39,512 nucleotides of DNA, taken from positions 40,312-79,823 of the forward strand of contig MGUA01000012.1 of the NCBI GenBank assembly GCA_001799735.1, read 5' to 3'. Both the position numbers and the translations under genes were made by a program. The stretch is from Elusimicrobia bacterium GWB2_63_22 (GTDB lineage: Bacteria; Elusimicrobiota; Elusimicrobia; Elusimicrobiales; UBA9959). Within the stretch, counting starts at the first letter, position 1, and each line of letters starts with the position of its first letter. This document shows, piece by piece, positions 24,334-37,546 of this stretch. Below the pieces are notes generated by a model. It had not been told where the DNA came from and did no database searches. It worked only from the letters and a program-made list of their open reading frames with translations.

Positions 24334-24375
24334 ATGAGGGCAGCATGCGTTAATACAAAAACGGAGGCCACCAGG

Positions 24376-25410
24376 GTGAACTACCATATACTGATGAAAG
24401 GTGAACTTGACGGTTTCGTCAAGAAACTCGCCAAGAAAATGAAAGTCTGCGCCCCAGTAGCTAAAGGGCACAACAACTACGCTTTCGAGGAAGTGACTTC
24501 GGCCGCGGAGATATCTATGGATTATATCCCTACGATACTCCCGCCCAAGAAATACTTCATGCCGCCCCGGGAAAAGATGCTCGACTTCGACATCTCCGAG
24601 GGCAAACCGAAGGACGCCGCCAACCTTAAGGCGGAGCCCCTGGCCGTGTTCGCGGTGCATACCTGCGACCTGGCCGGCATCCAGTGCCTGAACATGGTCT
24701 TCTCCGAGAAGCCCCGCGACTACAACTACCTGCTCAGGAAAGAGAGCGTCTTTGTGATCGGCCTCGAGTGCAACAAGTACTGCGACTCTAACGCCAGCTG
24801 CGCGCTGGTGGGCAACCACTACCCGAACGGCGGCTACGACATCTTCTTTACCGACATCGGAGACAAATGGGTGATCCACGTGGGGACCCAGAAGGGCGAA
24901 GAGCTGGTGGAGAGCATGGGCCTCGCCAAGGCGTCTTCCGCCGACATGGTGGCGCTGGACAAGGTCCGCGAGGGCAAGAAGCACGCCTTCCAGAACGAGA
25001 TCGGCGTGGACCCTAAGAAGCTCCCCGAGATCTTCGCCAAAGGCACCGAGAGCAAGGTGTGGCAGGACGTGGGCAACCGGTGCGTCTCCTGCGGCAACTG
25101 CACCAACGTCTGCCCCACCTGCTACTGCTTCGACATGGCCGACACGATCAACCTGGACCTGAAGACCGGCTCGCGCAACCGCACCTGGGATTCCTGCCAG
25201 TTCGAGACGTTCGCCGCCGTGGCCGGCGGGGAGAACTTCCGCGAGGAGCGCGCCAACAGGCAGCGGCACCGCTTCTACCGCAAGTTCAAGTACCCGATAG
25301 ACAAGTTCTACCGCTCCTTCTGCACCGGCTGCGGCCGCTGCACGCGCACCTGCATGGCCAAGATCAACCTGAAGGACACCCTGAAGGCCCTGGCCGCCGA
25401 GCACAAATAA
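24376..25410 (+). CDS. hydB: Sulfhydrogenase-type [NiFe] hydrogenase, beta (iron-sulfur) subunit
   Basis: A 344-residue cytosolic electron-transfer subunit that would carry electrons between the flavin subunit and the NiFe dimer. Two 4Fe-4S binding motifs are seen: CVSCGNCTNVCPTCYC (about residues 236-251) and CTGCGRCTRTCMAK (about 316-329). The N-terminal 230 residues match the family-specific domain of HydB/HyhB (VHTCDLAGIQCLN; LECNKYCDSNASCALVG). GTG 24376 is taken as the start because GGAGG (24363-24367) lies 8 bases before it; the frame itself opens at 24334. First gene of a compact five-gene hydrogenase unit. Confidence 0.92.
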   Translation: MNYHILMKGELDGFVKKLAKKMKVCAPVAKGHNNYAFEEVTSAAEISMDYIPTILPPKKYFMPPREKMLDFDISEGKPKDAANLKAEPLAVFAVHTCDLAGIQCLNMVFSEKPRDYNYLLRKESVFVIGLECNKYCDSNASCALVGNHYPNGGYDIFFTDIGDKWVIHVGTQKGEELVESMGLAKASSADMVALDKVREGKKHAFQNEIGVDPKKLPEIFAKGTESKVWQDVGNRCVSCGNCTNVCPTCYCFDMADTINLDLKTGSRNRTWDSCQFETFAAVAGGENFREERANRQRHRFYRKFKYPIDKFYRSFCTGCGRCTRTCMAKINLKDTLKALAAEHK

Positions 25411-25419
25411 GGATATATC

Positions 25420-26262
25420 ATGACCGAGAACATCCACATAGAGAATTCCAACTGGAGGCTCCGCAAGGGGCAGATAATCGCCGCAAAGCAGATGACGGCC
25501 ACTGAAAAGTGGTTCGACATAAAGCTCGAGGACGGCGAACTGGACCACGAGCCCGGGCAGTTCGTGCAGGTTGAGCTGTTCGGCGTGGGCGAAGCGCCCA
25601 TCTCCATCTGCTCCAGCCCCACCAAGCGCGGCTCCTTCGAGCTGACCGTGCGCGCCGCCGGGCGCCTGACCAAGCACATGCAGGCCATGGGCAAGGGCGA
25701 CTGGCTGGGCATCCGCGGGCCGTTCGGCAAACCCTTCCCCGTGAAGCTGATGACCGGCAACGACCTGCTGTTTGTGGCCGGCGGCCTGGGCATAGCGCCG
25801 CTGCGCTCGCTTATTAATTACGTGATGGACAACCGCCGCGAGTTCGGCAAAGTGGACATATTGCTCGGCTGCAAGACGCCCACCGACATGCTGTTCGGCG
25901 ACGAGATCAAAGAGTGGCAGAAGCGCCTGGACGTGAACTTCTCCTGCACGGTGGACCGCACGGCCCCCGACTGGAAAGGCAACGTCGGCCTGATCACCAG
26001 CCTGATCCCCGGCGTGACCATTAACCCGGAGAAGACCTTCGGCGTGGTGGTGGGGCCCCCGATCATGTACAAATTCGTCATAGCCGAGCTGCTCAAGAAG
26101 AACCTGCCCGAGAGGCAGATCATCCTGTCGCTCGAGCGGCACATGAAATGCGGGATGGGGAAATGCGGCCACTGCCAGATAGACCACCCCAAGAACTACT
26201 ACTGCTGCAAGGACGGCCCTACCTTCACCTACGAAGAGGTGAAGGAATCGAAGAAACTTTAA
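25420..26262 (+). CDS. hydG: Sulfhydrogenase-type [NiFe] hydrogenase, gamma (FAD/NAD(P)-binding) subunit
   Basis: A 280-residue ferredoxin-reductase-like subunit that exchanges electrons with NAD(P)H. The FAD domain (about 15-105) has GEAPISICSSP, the HydG/PyrK-type version of the flavin motif, and RGPFGKPF. The nucleotide domain begins LLFVAGGLGIAPLRSL (about 111-126). A C-terminal 2Fe-2S site is formed by CGMGKCGHCQ and the later YYCCKDGP. Nine bases separate it from hydB. Group 3b enzymes of this type usually use NADPH and may also reduce sulfur or polysulfide. Confidence 0.93.
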   Translation: MTENIHIENSNWRLRKGQIIAAKQMTATEKWFDIKLEDGELDHEPGQFVQVELFGVGEAPISICSSPTKRGSFELTVRAAGRLTKHMQAMGKGDWLGIRGPFGKPFPVKLMTGNDLLFVAGGLGIAPLRSLINYVMDNRREFGKVDILLGCKTPTDMLFGDEIKEWQKRLDVNFSCTVDRTAPDWKGNVGLITSLIPGVTINPEKTFGVVVGPPIMYKFVIAELLKKNLPERQIILSLERHMKCGMGKCGHCQIDHPKNYYCCKDGPTFTYEEVKESKKL

Positions 26263-26278
26263 TACGGAGAAACAAACG

Positions 26279-27070
26279 ATGAAAACCGCTAAAAACGATA
26301 CGAAAGCTCCGGCGAAGGCCCCCAAAGCCGCCGCCAAGCCCAAGGTGGCCTTCTTCGACTTCGCCTCCTGCGAAGGCTGCCAGCTGCAGATCACCAACTT
26401 CGGCGAGCTGCTGCTCGACGTGCTCGGCGCCGTGGACGTGGTGGAGTTCCGCGAGGCCATCAGCGAGAAGTGGGACGGCGACTACGACGTGGTCTTCATA
26501 GAGGGCTCCATCGGCGACCATCACGCCGAGGAGCGCCTGAAGAAGATCCGCGCGAGGGCCAAGGTGCTCATCGCCTACGGCGCCTGCGCCTGCACCGGCG
26601 GCGTGAACGGCATGAAGAATTCCTTCGAGCTCGACGAGATCCGGGCTAGCGTGTACGGCAAGGACTACAAGCTGTTCGACAGCACGGCCACCAAGCGCGT
26701 GGACCAGGTGGTCAAGGTGGACTACTACATCAACGGCTGCCCGATCTACATTCCCGAGCTGGTAGAGGTGCTCAAGTGCGCCCTGCGCGGCCTGCCCTAC
26801 ACCGTGCCGGACAACCCCGTCTGCGCCGAGTGCAAGCTCAACGAGAACGTCTGCATGTACGAGCGCGGCCTGGCCTGCCTGGGCCCGTGGACGAAGGCCG
26901 GCTGCAACAGCTGGTGCGTCAACAACGGCAACATCTGCTACGGCTGCCGCGGCGAGGTGAGCAACCCCGCGAAGAACGCGGGCGACGTTATCAGCAAATA
27001 CAACCTGAAGCCCGAACTTATAAAAGCTAAGTTCGACATGTACAACAAGTGCAAGGAAGGTGTGAAATAA
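26279..27070 (+). CDS. hydD: Sulfhydrogenase-type [NiFe] hydrogenase, delta (small) subunit
   Basis: A 263-residue small subunit carrying the Fe-S relay. The proximal cluster ligands appear in FASCEGCQLQ (31-34), GACACTGG and NGCPIYI. Further clusters are supplied by VCAECKLNENVC, ACLGPWTKAGC and ICYGC towards the C-terminus. There is no Tat signal, so the enzyme is cytoplasmic. Instead the protein begins with a Lys/Ala/Pro-rich 22-residue extension before KVAFFDFASC, unusual for this family. The stop TAA shares its last base with the start of the large-subunit gene. Confidence 0.94.
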   Translation: MKTAKNDTKAPAKAPKAAAKPKVAFFDFASCEGCQLQITNFGELLLDVLGAVDVVEFREAISEKWDGDYDVVFIEGSIGDHHAEERLKKIRARAKVLIAYGACACTGGVNGMKNSFELDEIRASVYGKDYKLFDSTATKRVDQVVKVDYYINGCPIYIPELVEVLKCALRGLPYTVPDNPVCAECKLNENVCMYERGLACLGPWTKAGCNSWCVNNGNICYGCRGEVSNPAKNAGDVISKYNLKPELIKAKFDMYNKCKEGVK

Positions 27071-28398
27071 TGGCTAATGTAAAAGATCTCGACATTAAAG
27101 TAGAATACGTCACCCGCGTGGAAGGCCACGGCAACATTGTCGCCAACGTGAAGAACGGCAAGATAGAGAAATGCGAGTTCCACGTGGTGGAGACGCCCCG
27201 CCTGTTCGAGGGCATGCTGCGCGGCCGCAGCATCTTCGAGGCGCAGCACATCACCAGCCGCATCTGCGGCATCTGCTCCTGCGGCCACTCCCTGGCCAGC
27301 GTGAAAGCGGCCGAGGACGCGCTGGGCGTAGTCCCGACCGAGCAGGCCGTGAAGCTGCGCAAGCTCCTCCTGGACTACGAGTTCCTCGACAGCCACATCC
27401 TGCACGTGTACCTGCTGGCCGCCCCCGACGTGCTGGGCGTGCCCTCCTTCATTCCGCTCATCGCCTCGCACAACAAGGTCGTGCGCCAGGTGCTGCGCCT
27501 CAAGAAGGCCGTCAACGACTGCTGCGACATCCTGGTCGGGCGCCACATCCACCCCATCACCATGATAGCCGGCGGCTGGACCAAGCTGCCTTCCAAGAAA
27601 GAGATAGACACGCAGATAAAGCTGCTGGAAGGCATGGCCGAGGACCTGGGCGAAGTGCTCAAGCTCGCCGCGACCCTTAAGTTCCCGGACTTCCACCGCA
27701 AGACCGAGTACGTGGCGCTGGTCTCCGACGACAACGAATACCCGCTCCTCAACGGCGACATCGGTTCTACCGAAGGCAAGCGCGTGAGCTACAAGGACTA
27801 TAAGAAGTCCACCAACGAGTTCGTGGACCCGCGCTCCTCGGCCAAGTTCACCAAGTGGAGCGGCAACAGCGTGTTCGTGGGCGCCCTGGCCCGCTTTAAC
27901 CTGAACGCGCACAAGCTGCACCCTAAGGCCAAAGCGCTCGCCAAGGACCTGGGCTTCAAGCCGGTCTGCGACAACCCGTTCCTCAACACCGTGGCGCAGG
28001 TGGTAGAGATAGTGCACTGCTACTACCACGCGCTCGACATTCTGCGCGACCTCAAGAAGAACGGCCTGGACTACAGCGAGCAGCTCACCGTGGGCGTCAA
28101 CGAGAAGGGCGCAGTGCCCGTACGCGCCGGCGACGGCGTAGGCTCGGTGGAAGTGCCCCGCGGCATCCTGCACCACAACTACATAACGGACAAGGCCGGC
28201 ATGATAAAGCAGGCCAACTGCATTATCCCGACCAACCAGAACGTCAACAACATAGAGTACGACTTCGCCAAGTTCCTGCCCGAGATCCTCACCGAGTCCA
28301 AGGACAGCATACGCCTTAAGCTCGAGATGCTCGTGCGGGCTTACGATCCGTGCATCTCCTGCTCCGCTCACTTCCTCGATGTCACCTTCGTGGAATAA
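27070..28398 (+). CDS. hydA: Sulfhydrogenase-type [NiFe] hydrogenase, alpha (large) subunit
   Basis: A 442-residue catalytic subunit holding the NiFe(CN)2CO centre that splits or makes hydrogen. The L1 motif RICGICSCGH gives Cys66 and Cys69. The L2 motif DPCISCSAH gives Cys428 and Cys431. The eight residues after His434 (FLDVTFVE) are the expected C-terminal peptide removed after nickel insertion. VTRVEGHGN (15-23) and the L2 form fit group 3b. ATG 27070 overlaps the small-subunit stop; the frame opens earlier, at 27049. The codons for the cleaved tail lie inside the 20-base overlap with the protease gene. Confidence 0.95.
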   Translation: MANVKDLDIKVEYVTRVEGHGNIVANVKNGKIEKCEFHVVETPRLFEGMLRGRSIFEAQHITSRICGICSCGHSLASVKAAEDALGVVPTEQAVKLRKLLLDYEFLDSHILHVYLLAAPDVLGVPSFIPLIASHNKVVRQVLRLKKAVNDCCDILVGRHIHPITMIAGGWTKLPSKKEIDTQIKLLEGMAEDLGEVLKLAATLKFPDFHRKTEYVALVSDDNEYPLLNGDIGSTEGKRVSYKDYKKSTNEFVDPRSSAKFTKWSGNSVFVGALARFNLNAHKLHPKAKALAKDLGFKPVCDNPFLNTVAQVVEIVHCYYHALDILRDLKKNGLDYSEQLTVGVNEKGAVPVRAGDGVGSVEVPRGILHHNYITDKAGMIKQANCIIPTNQNVNNIEYDFAKFLPEILTESKDSIRLKLEMLVRAYDPCISCSAHFLDVTFVE

Positions 28399-28855
28399 GG
28401 AAGTCCTCGCCGCGCTGGCCCCCAAAGGCCGGACGCTGGTGATAACGCTGGGCAGTACGTTAAGGGCCGACGATGGCGTCGGCCCTTACGTTTGCTCTCA
28501 TGTGAAATTCAACCGTCCGGAGCTGCGGCTGCTGGACGCCGGCACCACACCGGAGAACGTGGCCCAGACCGCCATAGACTGGAAGCCGGACAAGGTGATC
28601 CTGGTGGACGCGGCCCATTTTCAGGGGACGGCGGGGGAAGTGCGCGTGATCCCGCTGGAGGCCATCAACCAGAGCACCGCCATCTCCACCCACAGCTTCC
28701 CGTTGTCGGTGACTTTTTCCATAATCAAGGAAGACACCGGCTGCGAGCTGGCGGTTATCGGCGTGCAGGCCAAATCCCTGGACTACCAGGAAGGCCTGAG
28801 CCCCGAGGTGGAAGCAACCGCCGCAAAATTAGTAGATTACTTCAACGGTTTATAA
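28379..28855 (+). CDS. Hydrogenase maturation protease
   Basis: A 158-residue HybD/HycI-type nickel-dependent endopeptidase expected to cut the large subunit after His434. It has LGSTLRADDGVGPYV (about 24-38), where the usual GN is GS and Asp31 or Asp32 would bind nickel. The second metal-binding region is VDAAHFQG near residue 76, and the third STHSFPLS near 103. The ATG lies 20 bases inside the large-subunit gene in another frame, so synthesis of the two is probably coupled. The family match is good; specificity for this hydrogenase is inferred from position. Confidence 0.9.
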   Translation: MSPSWNKEVLAALAPKGRTLVITLGSTLRADDGVGPYVCSHVKFNRPELRLLDAGTTPENVAQTAIDWKPDKVILVDAAHFQGTAGEVRVIPLEAINQSTAISTHSFPLSVTFSIIKEDTGCELAVIGVQAKSLDYQEGLSPEVEATAAKLVDYFNGL

Positions 28856-33053: not shown

Positions 33054-33098
33054 ATGCCGGGCGCCGTATTTATTAGTATAGAGGAAATGCAGGGACCT

Positions 33099-33596
33099 AT
33101 GAACTTTACAGACCTTTATGACCGCTACTTCGGCAAGGTCTACAACTACGTCCGCTACCACGTGCGGGTCCCTGACGAAGCCGACGACGTAACCGGCAGG
33201 ATCTTTGAAGCGGCGCTGCGCAGCTACAGCGCCTATGACGGAGCCAAAGGCCCCGTGCAGGCCTGGCTCTTCACCATCGCCCGCAATGCCGTAATAGACT
33301 GGGCCAGGACCAGGAACCACAGGGCCGAAGTCCCCCTGGAAGCCGCAGGGGACCGCGACGGCGGCGAACCCCACCCGGCCGCCGCCCTGGAGCGCAAAGA
33401 AGAGGCGGGGCTCCTGCTGGCCGCCGTGGGCACCCTGGACGAGCGGTCCAGGGACATAATCGCCCTGAAGTTCAGCTCGGGCCTGAATAACCGCGAGATA
33501 GCGCAGATGACCGGCCTGGGCGAGAGCAACGTAGGCATACTGGTCTACCGCGCCGTCAAAAAAATGCAGACCTTCATAGAGGGCAGAAAGTTATGA
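33099..33596 (+). CDS. ECF-type RNA polymerase sigma factor
   Basis: A 165-residue sigma-70 family protein with only regions 2 and 4. Region 2 (about 1-75) has FTDLYDRYFGKVYNYVRYHV, DDVTGRIFEAA and AWLFTIARNAVIDWAR. Region 4 (about 100-160) has LDERSRDIIALKFSSGLNNREIAQMTGLGESNVGILVYRAVKKMQ, a helix-turn-helix for the -35 element. ATG 33099 is chosen; another in-frame ATG at 33087 has its GAGG too close. The stop overlaps the next gene in ATGA, the usual coupling of ECF sigma with its anti-sigma factor. Confidence 0.92.
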   Translation: MNFTDLYDRYFGKVYNYVRYHVRVPDEADDVTGRIFEAALRSYSAYDGAKGPVQAWLFTIARNAVIDWARTRNHRAEVPLEAAGDRDGGEPHPAAALERKEEAGLLLAAVGTLDERSRDIIALKFSSGLNNREIAQMTGLGESNVGILVYRAVKKMQTFIEGRKL

Positions 33597-34201: not shown

Positions 34202-34226
34202 TGAATTGTCGGTACAAGGAGGCCTT

Positions 34227-34691
34227 ATGAAAACCATAGCGATAGCCGTACTGCTGGCGGCGGCCCCGGCGGCCGCGGGCGAACAGAAGGAAGCGGTCTC
34301 ACAGGAGGCTCCCGCCAAGGCGCCGGCCGGCCTGGTAAAGGGCTACAGGGGCACCACCATCCCCGTCGCGGGGCATCAGCTCCTGTTCCTCAAGAAGGGC
34401 GACAGGGTGGATGTGCTCGTTACCTTCGACGCCAAGATGGTGGACAAGGATAAGAAAGAGCGCAAAGAGAAGATCACCGCGAGCATACTGCAGAACGTAG
34501 TGGTGATCAACGTCTCCAAGCCGGCCAAACTGGACGAGCCCGGCGTAGTGGAGCTGCTGCTCAACCCCAACGAGGCACAGTACGCCGCCCTCAGCACCTC
34601 CCAGGGGATAGTCAGCATAACCGTGCGGGCCCCGGGCGACACCGAGCTGCACCCGATGGAGATGGCCAGCTTCAGGAAGCTGATAAAGTAG
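34227..34691 (+). CDS. Secreted RcpC/CpaB-like domain protein, short paralogue
   Basis: A 154-residue exported protein. A signal peptide of about 18 residues ends at APAAAG. After a short Ala/Lys linker comes a domain with KGYRGTTIPVAGHQLLFLKKG, DRVDVLVTFDA, ITASILQNVVVINV, LLLNPNEAQYAALSTSQG and VSITVRAPGD. This succession is typical of the RcpC/CpaB pilus-assembly domain (SAF-like, Flp pilus). The N-terminal membrane anchor and first SAF domain of true CpaB are missing. AAGGAGG (34216-34222) supports ATG 34227. It shares its domain with the next gene, so the pair arose by duplication. Function unknown. Confidence 0.72.
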   Translation: MKTIAIAVLLAAAPAAAGEQKEAVSQEAPAKAPAGLVKGYRGTTIPVAGHQLLFLKKGDRVDVLVTFDAKMVDKDKKERKEKITASILQNVVVINVSKPAKLDEPGVVELLLNPNEAQYAALSTSQGIVSITVRAPGDTELHPMEMASFRKLIK

Positions 34692-34709
34692 GCTGTGGAG
34701 GACAAACTT

Positions 34710-35699
34710 ATGAAATATATTCTACTGGTCCTTATCTCGGCTGCTTTAGCCGCCCCGGCGGCCGCGGCCGCGGGCGCCGACTGCGCCGCCCAGGACATGC
34801 AGCTGTTCTACTACTACCTTAACGCCGACCGCGACGCCAAGGTGCATGATTACCCCACGGCCTGCCACCCCGGCAAGACGTCCATGCAGATGCCCGGCTG
34901 GCTGGACAAGGCCCTGCCGGCCATGCTGGAGCGCAAGGTCTGGAAGTCCCCGGAGGACGGGGAACTGAGCGAGGCCGCGGTCTGGCAGACCCCGGTGTCC
35001 ATTCTCTACGAGTTCAACTCCACGGCGGGCAAAGCCGAAAAGCCGCTGGCCATGGAGGCCGAATTCAGTGACCTGCGCATACGCTTCAACATGAGCGTGG
35101 ACCGCGTGGCGCGGGCCAAGCTCGAGGGCTCTTTCGAGGGTCGGGGCGGGGCCATGCTGGCCTCGCTGGACGGCATAGCCAGGACCTTCGACGAACTGAC
35201 CGGGGCCGTGGCCAAGGGCGACCAGAAGGGCTACGACGCCAAAGCGGCCGAGCTGATGAAGCGCAGCCGCGGCCTGTTCTCGCTGCTCTTTGAAGCCCCG
35301 GAGAAAGCCGCGGCTAAAAAGGCGGCGACGCGCTACACGCCGGAAGCCCGGCTGCTGCCCGGCTACAGGGGCGTCAGCCTGCCGCTGGCCGGCTCGCAGG
35401 CGCTGTTCGTGGAGAAAGGCGACAGGGTGGATATGCTGGTCACCTTCGAGGCGATCATGACCAACGACGTGAAGGAGAAGATCACGGCCACCATCCTGCA
35501 GAACGTGCTGGTGACCGCCGTGGTTAAGCCCGCCGGCAGCGAGCCCGGCGTGGTGCAGCTGCTGTGCAACCCCAACGAGGCGCAGTACGCCGCCCTCAGC
35601 CTGGCCCAGGCCAGCAACATCAACCTGACCAGGCGCGCGCCCGGCGACACGGCGCTGCGCGCCATGGAGATAGCGAGCTTCGGGAAACTGCTCAAGTAG
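34710..35699 (+). CDS. Secreted protein with C-terminal RcpC/CpaB-like domain, long paralogue
   Basis: A 329-residue exported protein. It has a signal peptide of about 20 residues (LLVLISAALAAPAAAAA). An unassigned region (about 22-205) with helices and two Cys follows. The C-terminal 120 residues closely parallel the preceding protein: PGYRGVSLPLAGSQALFVEKG, DRVDMLVTFEA, ITATILQNVLVTAV, LLCNPNEAQYAALSLAQ and RRAPGD. GGAGG (34697-34701) lies 8 bases before ATG 34710. It appears to be the shorter gene plus an acquired N-terminal region. Position behind an ECF sigma operon suggests envelope-stress control; that is inference. Confidence 0.72.
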   Translation: MKYILLVLISAALAAPAAAAAGADCAAQDMQLFYYYLNADRDAKVHDYPTACHPGKTSMQMPGWLDKALPAMLERKVWKSPEDGELSEAAVWQTPVSILYEFNSTAGKAEKPLAMEAEFSDLRIRFNMSVDRVARAKLEGSFEGRGGAMLASLDGIARTFDELTGAVAKGDQKGYDAKAAELMKRSRGLFSLLFEAPEKAAAKKAATRYTPEARLLPGYRGVSLPLAGSQALFVEKGDRVDMLVTFEAIMTNDVKEKITATILQNVLVTAVVKPAGSEPGVVQLLCNPNEAQYAALSLAQASNINLTRRAPGDTALRAMEIASFGKLLK

Positions 35700-36425: not shown

Positions 36426-36431
36426 TATAAT
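36426..36431 (+). promoter_or_regulatory. -10 box of hypA, leaderless type
   Basis: A perfect TATAAT ends 9 bases before ATG 36441. No Shine-Dalgarno sequence precedes the ATG. A start at or 2-3 bases before the ATG is likely. Confidence 0.55.
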
Positions 36432-36440
36432 CCTTATACT

Positions 36441-36845
36441 ATGCACGAATGGGCCCTGGCTGAATCCGTCATCAAGACCGCCGTGGAACACGCGGCCTCC
36501 GAAAAATTCAAAAAGCTAAAAGAGACCGGTGTGGTCTTCGGCGAGCTGCAGGCGATAGATAAAGAGATCTTCGCCTTCGCGCTGGAGGAGCTGCGCAAGC
36601 AATTTCCGGCGGCCAGGGACTGCAAATTCAAGATCTCGGTGGAGCCGGCGGCCTTCCGCTGCAAGGCCTGCGCCCACGAGTTCCCGCTCAAGGGCCTGCG
36701 CAAGACCAAGGACGAGGCCGAGTTCATCCACTTCGTGCCCGAGATGGCGCACACCTTCCTCAAATGCCCCAAGTGCAAAAGCCCGGACTTCGAGATAGCC
36801 GCGGGCCGCGGCGTGGGCATAAGCTATTTAAAGGGCGGGCGATGA
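36441..36845 (+). CDS. hypA: Hydrogenase nickel chaperone HypA, long archaeal-like form
   Basis: A 134-residue cytosolic metallochaperone that delivers nickel to the large subunit of [NiFe] hydrogenase. MHEWALAES carries the nickel-binding N-terminal Met-His-Glu. The zinc loop has Cys74/Cys77 and Cys109/Cys112, with 31 residues between the pairs, more than in the roughly 116-residue enterobacterial form. The insert with FIHFVPEMAHTFLKCPKCKSPDFEI and the end GRGVGISYL resemble HypA of Thermococcales. The protein starts at the ATG following TATAAT. It overlaps the next gene by ATGA, and that gene encodes an Mrp/MinD-like ATPase, not the classic HypB GTPase. Confidence 0.93.
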   Translation: MHEWALAESVIKTAVEHAASEKFKKLKETGVVFGELQAIDKEIFAFALEELRKQFPAARDCKFKISVEPAAFRCKACAHEFPLKGLRKTKDEAEFIHFVPEMAHTFLKCPKCKSPDFEIAAGRGVGISYLKGGR

Positions 36846-37546
36846 ACATCGACCCCCGGCCCTCGGTAATAGAAGAGCGCCTCAAAGGCGTCAAGCGCGT
36901 GATCGCCGTGACCGGCTGGAAAGGCGGCATAGGCAAGAGCGTCACCGCCGCCACGCTGGCCCTGCTGCTGGCGAAGAAGGGCTATAAGACCGGCCTGTTC
37001 GACCTGGATTTCGCCGGGGCCTCCGGCCACCTGGTGCTCGGCGCCAAAGGGCTCTTCCCTAAAGAAGAGAAGGGCCTGGAACCGCCGGTCTATGAAGGCG
37101 TCAAGTTCATGTCGGTGGTGTTCTTCTCCGACAACAAGGCCGTGCCGCTGCGCGGCGCCAACGTGTCCGACGCCATCATAGAGCTGTTGGCCATTACGCA
37201 GTGGGGGGAACTGGATTTCCTGGTGCTGGACATGCCGCCCGGCATAAACGACGCCGCGCTGGACGTGATGCGCTTCGCGCGCAGCGCCGAGGTGCTGGCC
37301 GTCACCGTGCCGTCCGTGCTGGCCCACGACGTGCTGGCGCGCTCGCTGGAGCTTTACAAAAAACTGAAGGTGCCCGTGCTCGGCGTGATAGAGAATATGT
37401 CCGCCGGCGGCAAACCGAAGGGCGCCAACGCCGTGATCCGGCGGGACCCGGGCCTGGAGCGGGCGCTCGGGCACCCGGGGGCGCTGCTGAAAACGGCTTT
37501 CGCCCGGGACCTGGCGAAGGCCGCCGCCCGGCTGGGGATAGCGTAA
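36842..37546 (+). CDS. Mrp/MinD-family ATPase, candidate HypB partner of HypA
   Basis: A 234-residue cytosolic ATPase. It shows the deviant Walker A KGGIGKS (27-33, signature Lys27), FDLDFAGASGH (53-63), switch II LDMPPGIND (129-137) and EVLAVTVPSVLAHDVLARSLELYKKL. That layout fits Mrp/NBP35 iron-sulfur scaffold ATPases and the Mrp/MinD-type HypB known from Thermococcus kodakarensis. The CPYC-type Cys pair of Mrp scaffolds is absent; there is no Cys in the whole chain as read. ATGA overlap with hypA supports HypA-HypB partnership. A general Mrp function is the alternative. Confidence 0.82.
   Translation: MNIDPRPSVIEERLKGVKRVIAVTGWKGGIGKSVTAATLALLLAKKGYKTGLFDLDFAGASGHLVLGAKGLFPKEEKGLEPPVYEGVKFMSVVFFSDNKAVPLRGANVSDAIIELLAITQWGELDFLVLDMPPGINDAALDVMRFARSAEVLAVTVPSVLAHDVLARSLELYKKLKVPVLGVIENMSAGGKPKGANAVIRRDPGLERALGHPGALLKTAFARDLAKAAARLGIA

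Follow-up and report, generated by a model that had tools for sequence, protein, structure and literature searches.

A Thermococcus-type HypA coupled to an ATPase-type HypB in Elusimicrobiota and other bacteria, a predicted nickel-loading pair in place of the GTPase HypB

The hypA and hypB genes of Thermococcus kodakarensis are adjacent, as Sasaki reportedly described in 2013. For their products, the solved structure of a HypA2HypB2 complex, the part of His98 and the regulation by ATP have been described, and T. kodakarensis is the only organism for which this complex is known to depend on ATP and to bind nickel with nanomolar affinity (PMC7055735). The ATPase-type HypB has been given from archaea only (PMC12134894, PMC7055735, PMC9164220), and a 2025 review of [NiFe] cofactor assembly still terms the ATP-hydrolysing HypB archaeal (PMC12134894). 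No paper on a bacterial ATPase-type HypB was found in the searchable open literature, most subscription journals lying outside the search. The machine itself is known, and its wide bacterial use seems not to have been described before.

The stretch of DNA analyzed here (the window) comprises 39,512 nucleotides and belongs to a genome (G000) of 3.06 Mb, 95% complete, whose named relatives are Elusimicrobia. In this window, hypA and the ATPase gene downstream of it very probably form a two-gene operon for a HypA-mmHypB nickel-loading machine, which would replace the GTPase HypB. The features considered are the following.

24334..28398, + strand: group-3b-like (sulfhydrogenase-type) [NiFe] hydrogenase, subunits beta, gamma, delta and alpha (HydB/ShyB, ShyC, ShyD and ShyA of NCBIfam, below the equivalog cut-offs; PF00374)
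28379..28855, + strand: hydrogenase maturation protease (HycI/TIGR00072 superfamily; TIGR00072 109.5 bits, cut-off 47)
36426..36431, + strand: TATAAT, a -10-like hexamer, with 9 nt between it and the hypA ATG
36441..36845, + strand: hypA, nickel metallochaperone of the long-loop (Thermococcus) class, 134 aa, with the MHE nickel motif, His97 and two CxxC
36842..37546, + strand: mmHypB, Mrp/MinD-type ATPase HypB, 234 aa, zero Cys

The ATG of hypA is located at 36441 and its TGA stop ends at 36845. A preliminary description of this DNA had given the pair as 36426-37546; the first of these positions is not the start of hypA but the first base of the upstream TATAAT. The other particulars of that description agreed with the sequence and its translation, namely the N-terminus MHEWALAES, the 31 residues separating CKAC from CPKC and the segment FIHFVPE in HypA, the ATGA overlap of the two genes (ATPase ATG at 36842, hypA TGA at 36845), and a Cys-free ATPase with KGGIGKS and DMPPGIND. 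HypA matched PF01155 far above chance in a Pfam profile search (5.9e-23) and, with 146.5 bits (4.4e-43; cut-off 125), is a member of the Thermococcus-type HypA family NF003008 of NCBIfam; the cut-off of the general HypA model TIGR00100 was not reached. Its sole strong match among solved structures was T. kodakarensis HypA (3a43/5aun; 2.3e-29), to which it is 42% identical, and the two residues that ligate nickel in the T. kodakarensis complex structure are kept, as His2 and as His97, which aligns with T. kodakarensis His98. M1, H2, E3 and the equivalent of this His98 were invariant across 62/62 paired HypAs examined, and in all 62 of them the CxxC pairs were spaced by 31 or 33 residues. In the short-loop HypAs that occur in other families of this phylum, the CxxC pairs are only 11-17 residues apart, and IHFxPE is missing.

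The ATPase matched PF10609 far above chance (Pfam, 4.9e-49), and its Walker A is deviant (GWKGGIGKS). Its best solved match was T. kodakarensis HypB (3vx3/5aun; 3.5e-61, 210 bits), the next one being Mrp with 112 bits, and the identity was 52% to T. kodakarensis HypB over 184 residues as against 35% to the same genome's own Mrp. The residues that the ATPase shares with T. kodakarensis HypB include an N-terminal DPR, Leu103, where Mrp has Trp, and Glu114, where Mrp mostly has Gln. The proposal that this is a T. kodakarensis-type HypA/mmHypB pair is borne out by the structure matches together with the trees.

Besides these identities, the window pair shares with T. kodakarensis mmHypB/HypA (3vx3, 5aun-5auq, 3a43) the gene order and adjacency, the deviant Walker A without CxxC, the long zinc loop, the MHE and His98 nickel ligands and the lack of a GTPase HypB, but it differs in its bacterial hosts (Elusimicrobiota, WOR-3 and a few Verrucomicrobia) and, in the window's genus, in a bacterial -10 box just ahead of the ATG. 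Like the GTPase HypB (G3E family, TIGR00073), the ATPase presumably uses a nucleotide to assist HypA in inserting nickel, but it is of another P-loop class and its genome gave no GTPase HypB match over the cut-off. It belongs, like the Mrp/ApbC/NBP35 Fe-S carriers, to the Mrp/MinD ATPase family PF10609, and unlike them it falls in a clade of its own, has no Fe-S cysteines and is coupled to hypA.

A GTPase-type hypB elsewhere in the genome had been named beforehand as something to look for and as evidence that would count against the preliminary description. With TIGR00073, which gave matches in control genomes known to have HypB, none was found over the cut-off in the window's own genome, in 341 Elusimicrobiota genomes or in 23 mmHypB-bearing genomes of several phyla, and the window ATPase itself gave no match. 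This absence is a search result and not a proof; the host genomes are MAGs, and the absence is weak for a single genome but not as a pattern over hundreds. A cobW/HypB-like match at 1374-2687 of the window was rejected as HypB, covering a short stretch only with 22.7 bits versus a cut-off of 121; its product presumably resembles a cyclic-diphosphoglycerate-synthetase-like GTPase. The best TIGR00073 match of the phylum (G210) is probably UreG, which adjoins an ORF judged by eye to be UreF-like. In other families of the Elusimicrobiota (L156-L160), a short-loop HypA is encoded near or among hypF, hypC, hypD and hypE, and HypB of either kind was not found in these genomes. Because such members of the phylum have a short HypA and no HypB was found in them, HypB may not be strictly needed. 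Both HypA classes occur in one Elusimicrobiota genome (G339), the short-loop one at L162 (7566-7979) and the long-loop one, WOR-3-like and accompanied by mmHypB, at another place (L163).

By analogy with T. kodakarensis, the function of the pair is most likely the ATP-dependent nickel loading of HypA. Behind this reading stand the families to which the two proteins belong, the coupling of their genes, the conservation of the nickel ligands, the lack of a detected GTPase HypB, and the presence of all of HypCDEF along with one [NiFe] hydrogenase. That the two proteins form a complex, that the process depends on ATP, that nickel is loaded and that the steps make up a cycle is carried over from the T. 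kodakarensis work. By homology, an mmHypB dimer would bind ATP and two HypA would dock onto it, setting HypA His97 beside Met1-His2-Glu3 and thereby creating a four-coordinate site that binds nickel tightly. Hydrolysis of the ATP would free the Ni-loaded HypA, which would hand its nickel to the large subunit already bearing Fe(CN)2CO from HypCDEF, and the C-terminus of the large subunit would then be cut by the protease. The pair would in this way take the place of the GTPase HypB.

The likely client of HypA-mmHypB is the hydrogenase at 24334..28398, the large subunit of which is encoded at 27049-28398. Its subunits are nearest to the archaeal sulfhydrogenases, yet they score under those equivalog cut-offs, and therefore "group-3b-like" is the safe name. 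A PF00374 search found it to be the single [NiFe] hydrogenase of the genome; a second match, on contig C10, is probably NuoD, lying among ORFs judged by eye to be complex I-like. The genes hypC, hypD, hypE and hypF are located on another contig (C23), and each of them passes its model. At 33054-33596 and 34206-35699, between the hydrogenase and hypA, an ECF sigma factor gene followed by ORFs weakly similar to the Flp pilus protein CpaB can be observed.

A long-loop hypA was located directly upstream of every mmHypB locus in the collection scan (L043-L100), from Elusimicrobia to Bathyarchaeota and Thermoplasmatota, and of none of the Mrp loci in the same scan (L101-L117). A few WOR-3 mmHypB genes (L214, L215) have no hypA within 1.5 kb. 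The HypA and HypB distances were correlated with a rho of 0.85 over 59 pairs, a value uncorrected for shared species history. One Verrucomicrobia MAG (JACRJX01) contains two hypA-mmHypB copies on different contigs (L073 and L081).

It is hardly credible that we are dealing with a regular Fe-S carrier of the Mrp/ApbC kind that lies beside hypA by chance. The ATPase does match Pfam PF10609 and the MrpORP/ApbC models, but the latter far below the cut-off (140.5 bits versus 450 for MrpORP), which leaves it outside Mrp/ApbC membership. In maximum-likelihood trees the mmHypB and Mrp proteins were split with 100/100 support, in every bootstrap, and the ATPase thus falls outside the Mrp Fe-S carriers, a grouping among which would have spoken against the preliminary description. 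Moreover, CxxC is absent from mmHypB, the window ATPase has no Cys at all, a canonical Mrp is already encoded separately on contig C42 (299.6 bits), and in two domains the ATPase gene is consistently linked to hypA. It is somewhat less improbable, though still very unlikely, that the pair loads nickel for a nickel enzyme other than the window's hydrogenase. The hypA-mmHypB pair does lie outside the hydrogenase operon, 7.6 kb downstream of it and with several unrelated genes in between, and HypA is known to help urease in Helicobacter (PMC7055735); against this, the genome has a full hypCDEF set and one [NiFe] hydrogenase, and hypD is also found in 54 of the 58 or so Elusimicrobiota genomes with mmHypB. 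Loading of the window's hydrogenase is accordingly the reading that we retain.

The preliminary description had assigned the archaeal pair to a single bacterial lineage, but mmHypB extends over at least three bacterial phyla. With matches of 1e-50 or better counted, some 58 genomes of the Elusimicrobiota have it (hypD occurs in 117 genomes of this phylum and HypA in 113), and it was also detected in 22/147 genomes of the WOR-3 phylum; in Verrucomicrobiota it is rare (one of 289 sampled, with two copies, and three MAGs in another search), and the HypA-mmHypB pair is also present in archaea. The known range of an ATPase HypB coupled to a matching HypA is widened accordingly, and bacterial homologues are now on hand for biochemistry. 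Annotation is at some risk, as mmHypB genes match Mrp-type carrier models in family libraries.

In the mmHypB tree, solid clades were formed by Elusimicrobiota plus Verrucomicrobia, by WOR-3, by the Bathyarchaeota type and by Thermoplasmatota, and these clades, T. kodakarensis HypB and G186 all hang from one basal polytomy. The branching gives no order of bacterial versus archaeal lines, and an archaeal origin is neither supported nor refuted by it. Since the WOR-3 clade includes mmHypB of G339 (98/89), and since the Verrucomicrobia proteins nest inside the Elusimicrobiota clade, a passage of mmHypB between bacterial phyla is suggested. It had also been supposed that the pair moved together with the sulfhydrogenase. 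Several Bathyarchaeota genomes and one Thermoplasmatota genome with mmHypB do encode a 3b-like large subunit, 48-50% identical, but where the pair occurs in Verrucomicrobia, in WOR-3 and in many of the archaeal genomes, the hydrogenases are of other types, a gut relative (the L087 genome) gave only a weak, group-4-like hydrogenase match, and the polytomy leaves the bacterial and archaeal lines side by side. With the pair also standing outside the hydrogenase operon here, its arrival in Elusimicrobiota from archaea along with a group-3b hydrogenase appears doubtful. Because the genomes with the pair have several [NiFe] hydrogenase types, as judged by sequence, it looks like a module that serves hydrogenase maturation in general, not one reserved for the sulfhydrogenase. 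We lean slightly towards a nickel-insertion system that is either ancient or has been exchanged repeatedly, bacterial as much as archaeal, with the Elusimicrobiota wholly lacking the GTPase HypB, some of their families using the pair and others managing on HypCDEF and a short HypA, without any HypB-type NTPase that is known.

Ahead of hypA, no Shine-Dalgarno sequence was found in the window. In 31/39 Elusimicrobia loci (the window and L043-L064, L067, L071, L075, L077, L078, L082-L084), the hypA ATG lies 11-15 nt (most often 12) downstream of the start of a TAT[ATC]AT hexamer, and a Shine-Dalgarno sequence is lacking; the same hexamer precedes only 2/1126 ATG ORFs of >=150 aa in loci L043-L071. 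Since the hexamer is conserved before hypA and rare before other ORFs, it suggests that the hypA-hypB mRNA is leaderless or nearly so, as a prediction from the DNA. Instead of this hexamer, the Bathyarchaeota copies have a TATA-like box rich in A/T, some 27 nt upstream of the hypA ATG.
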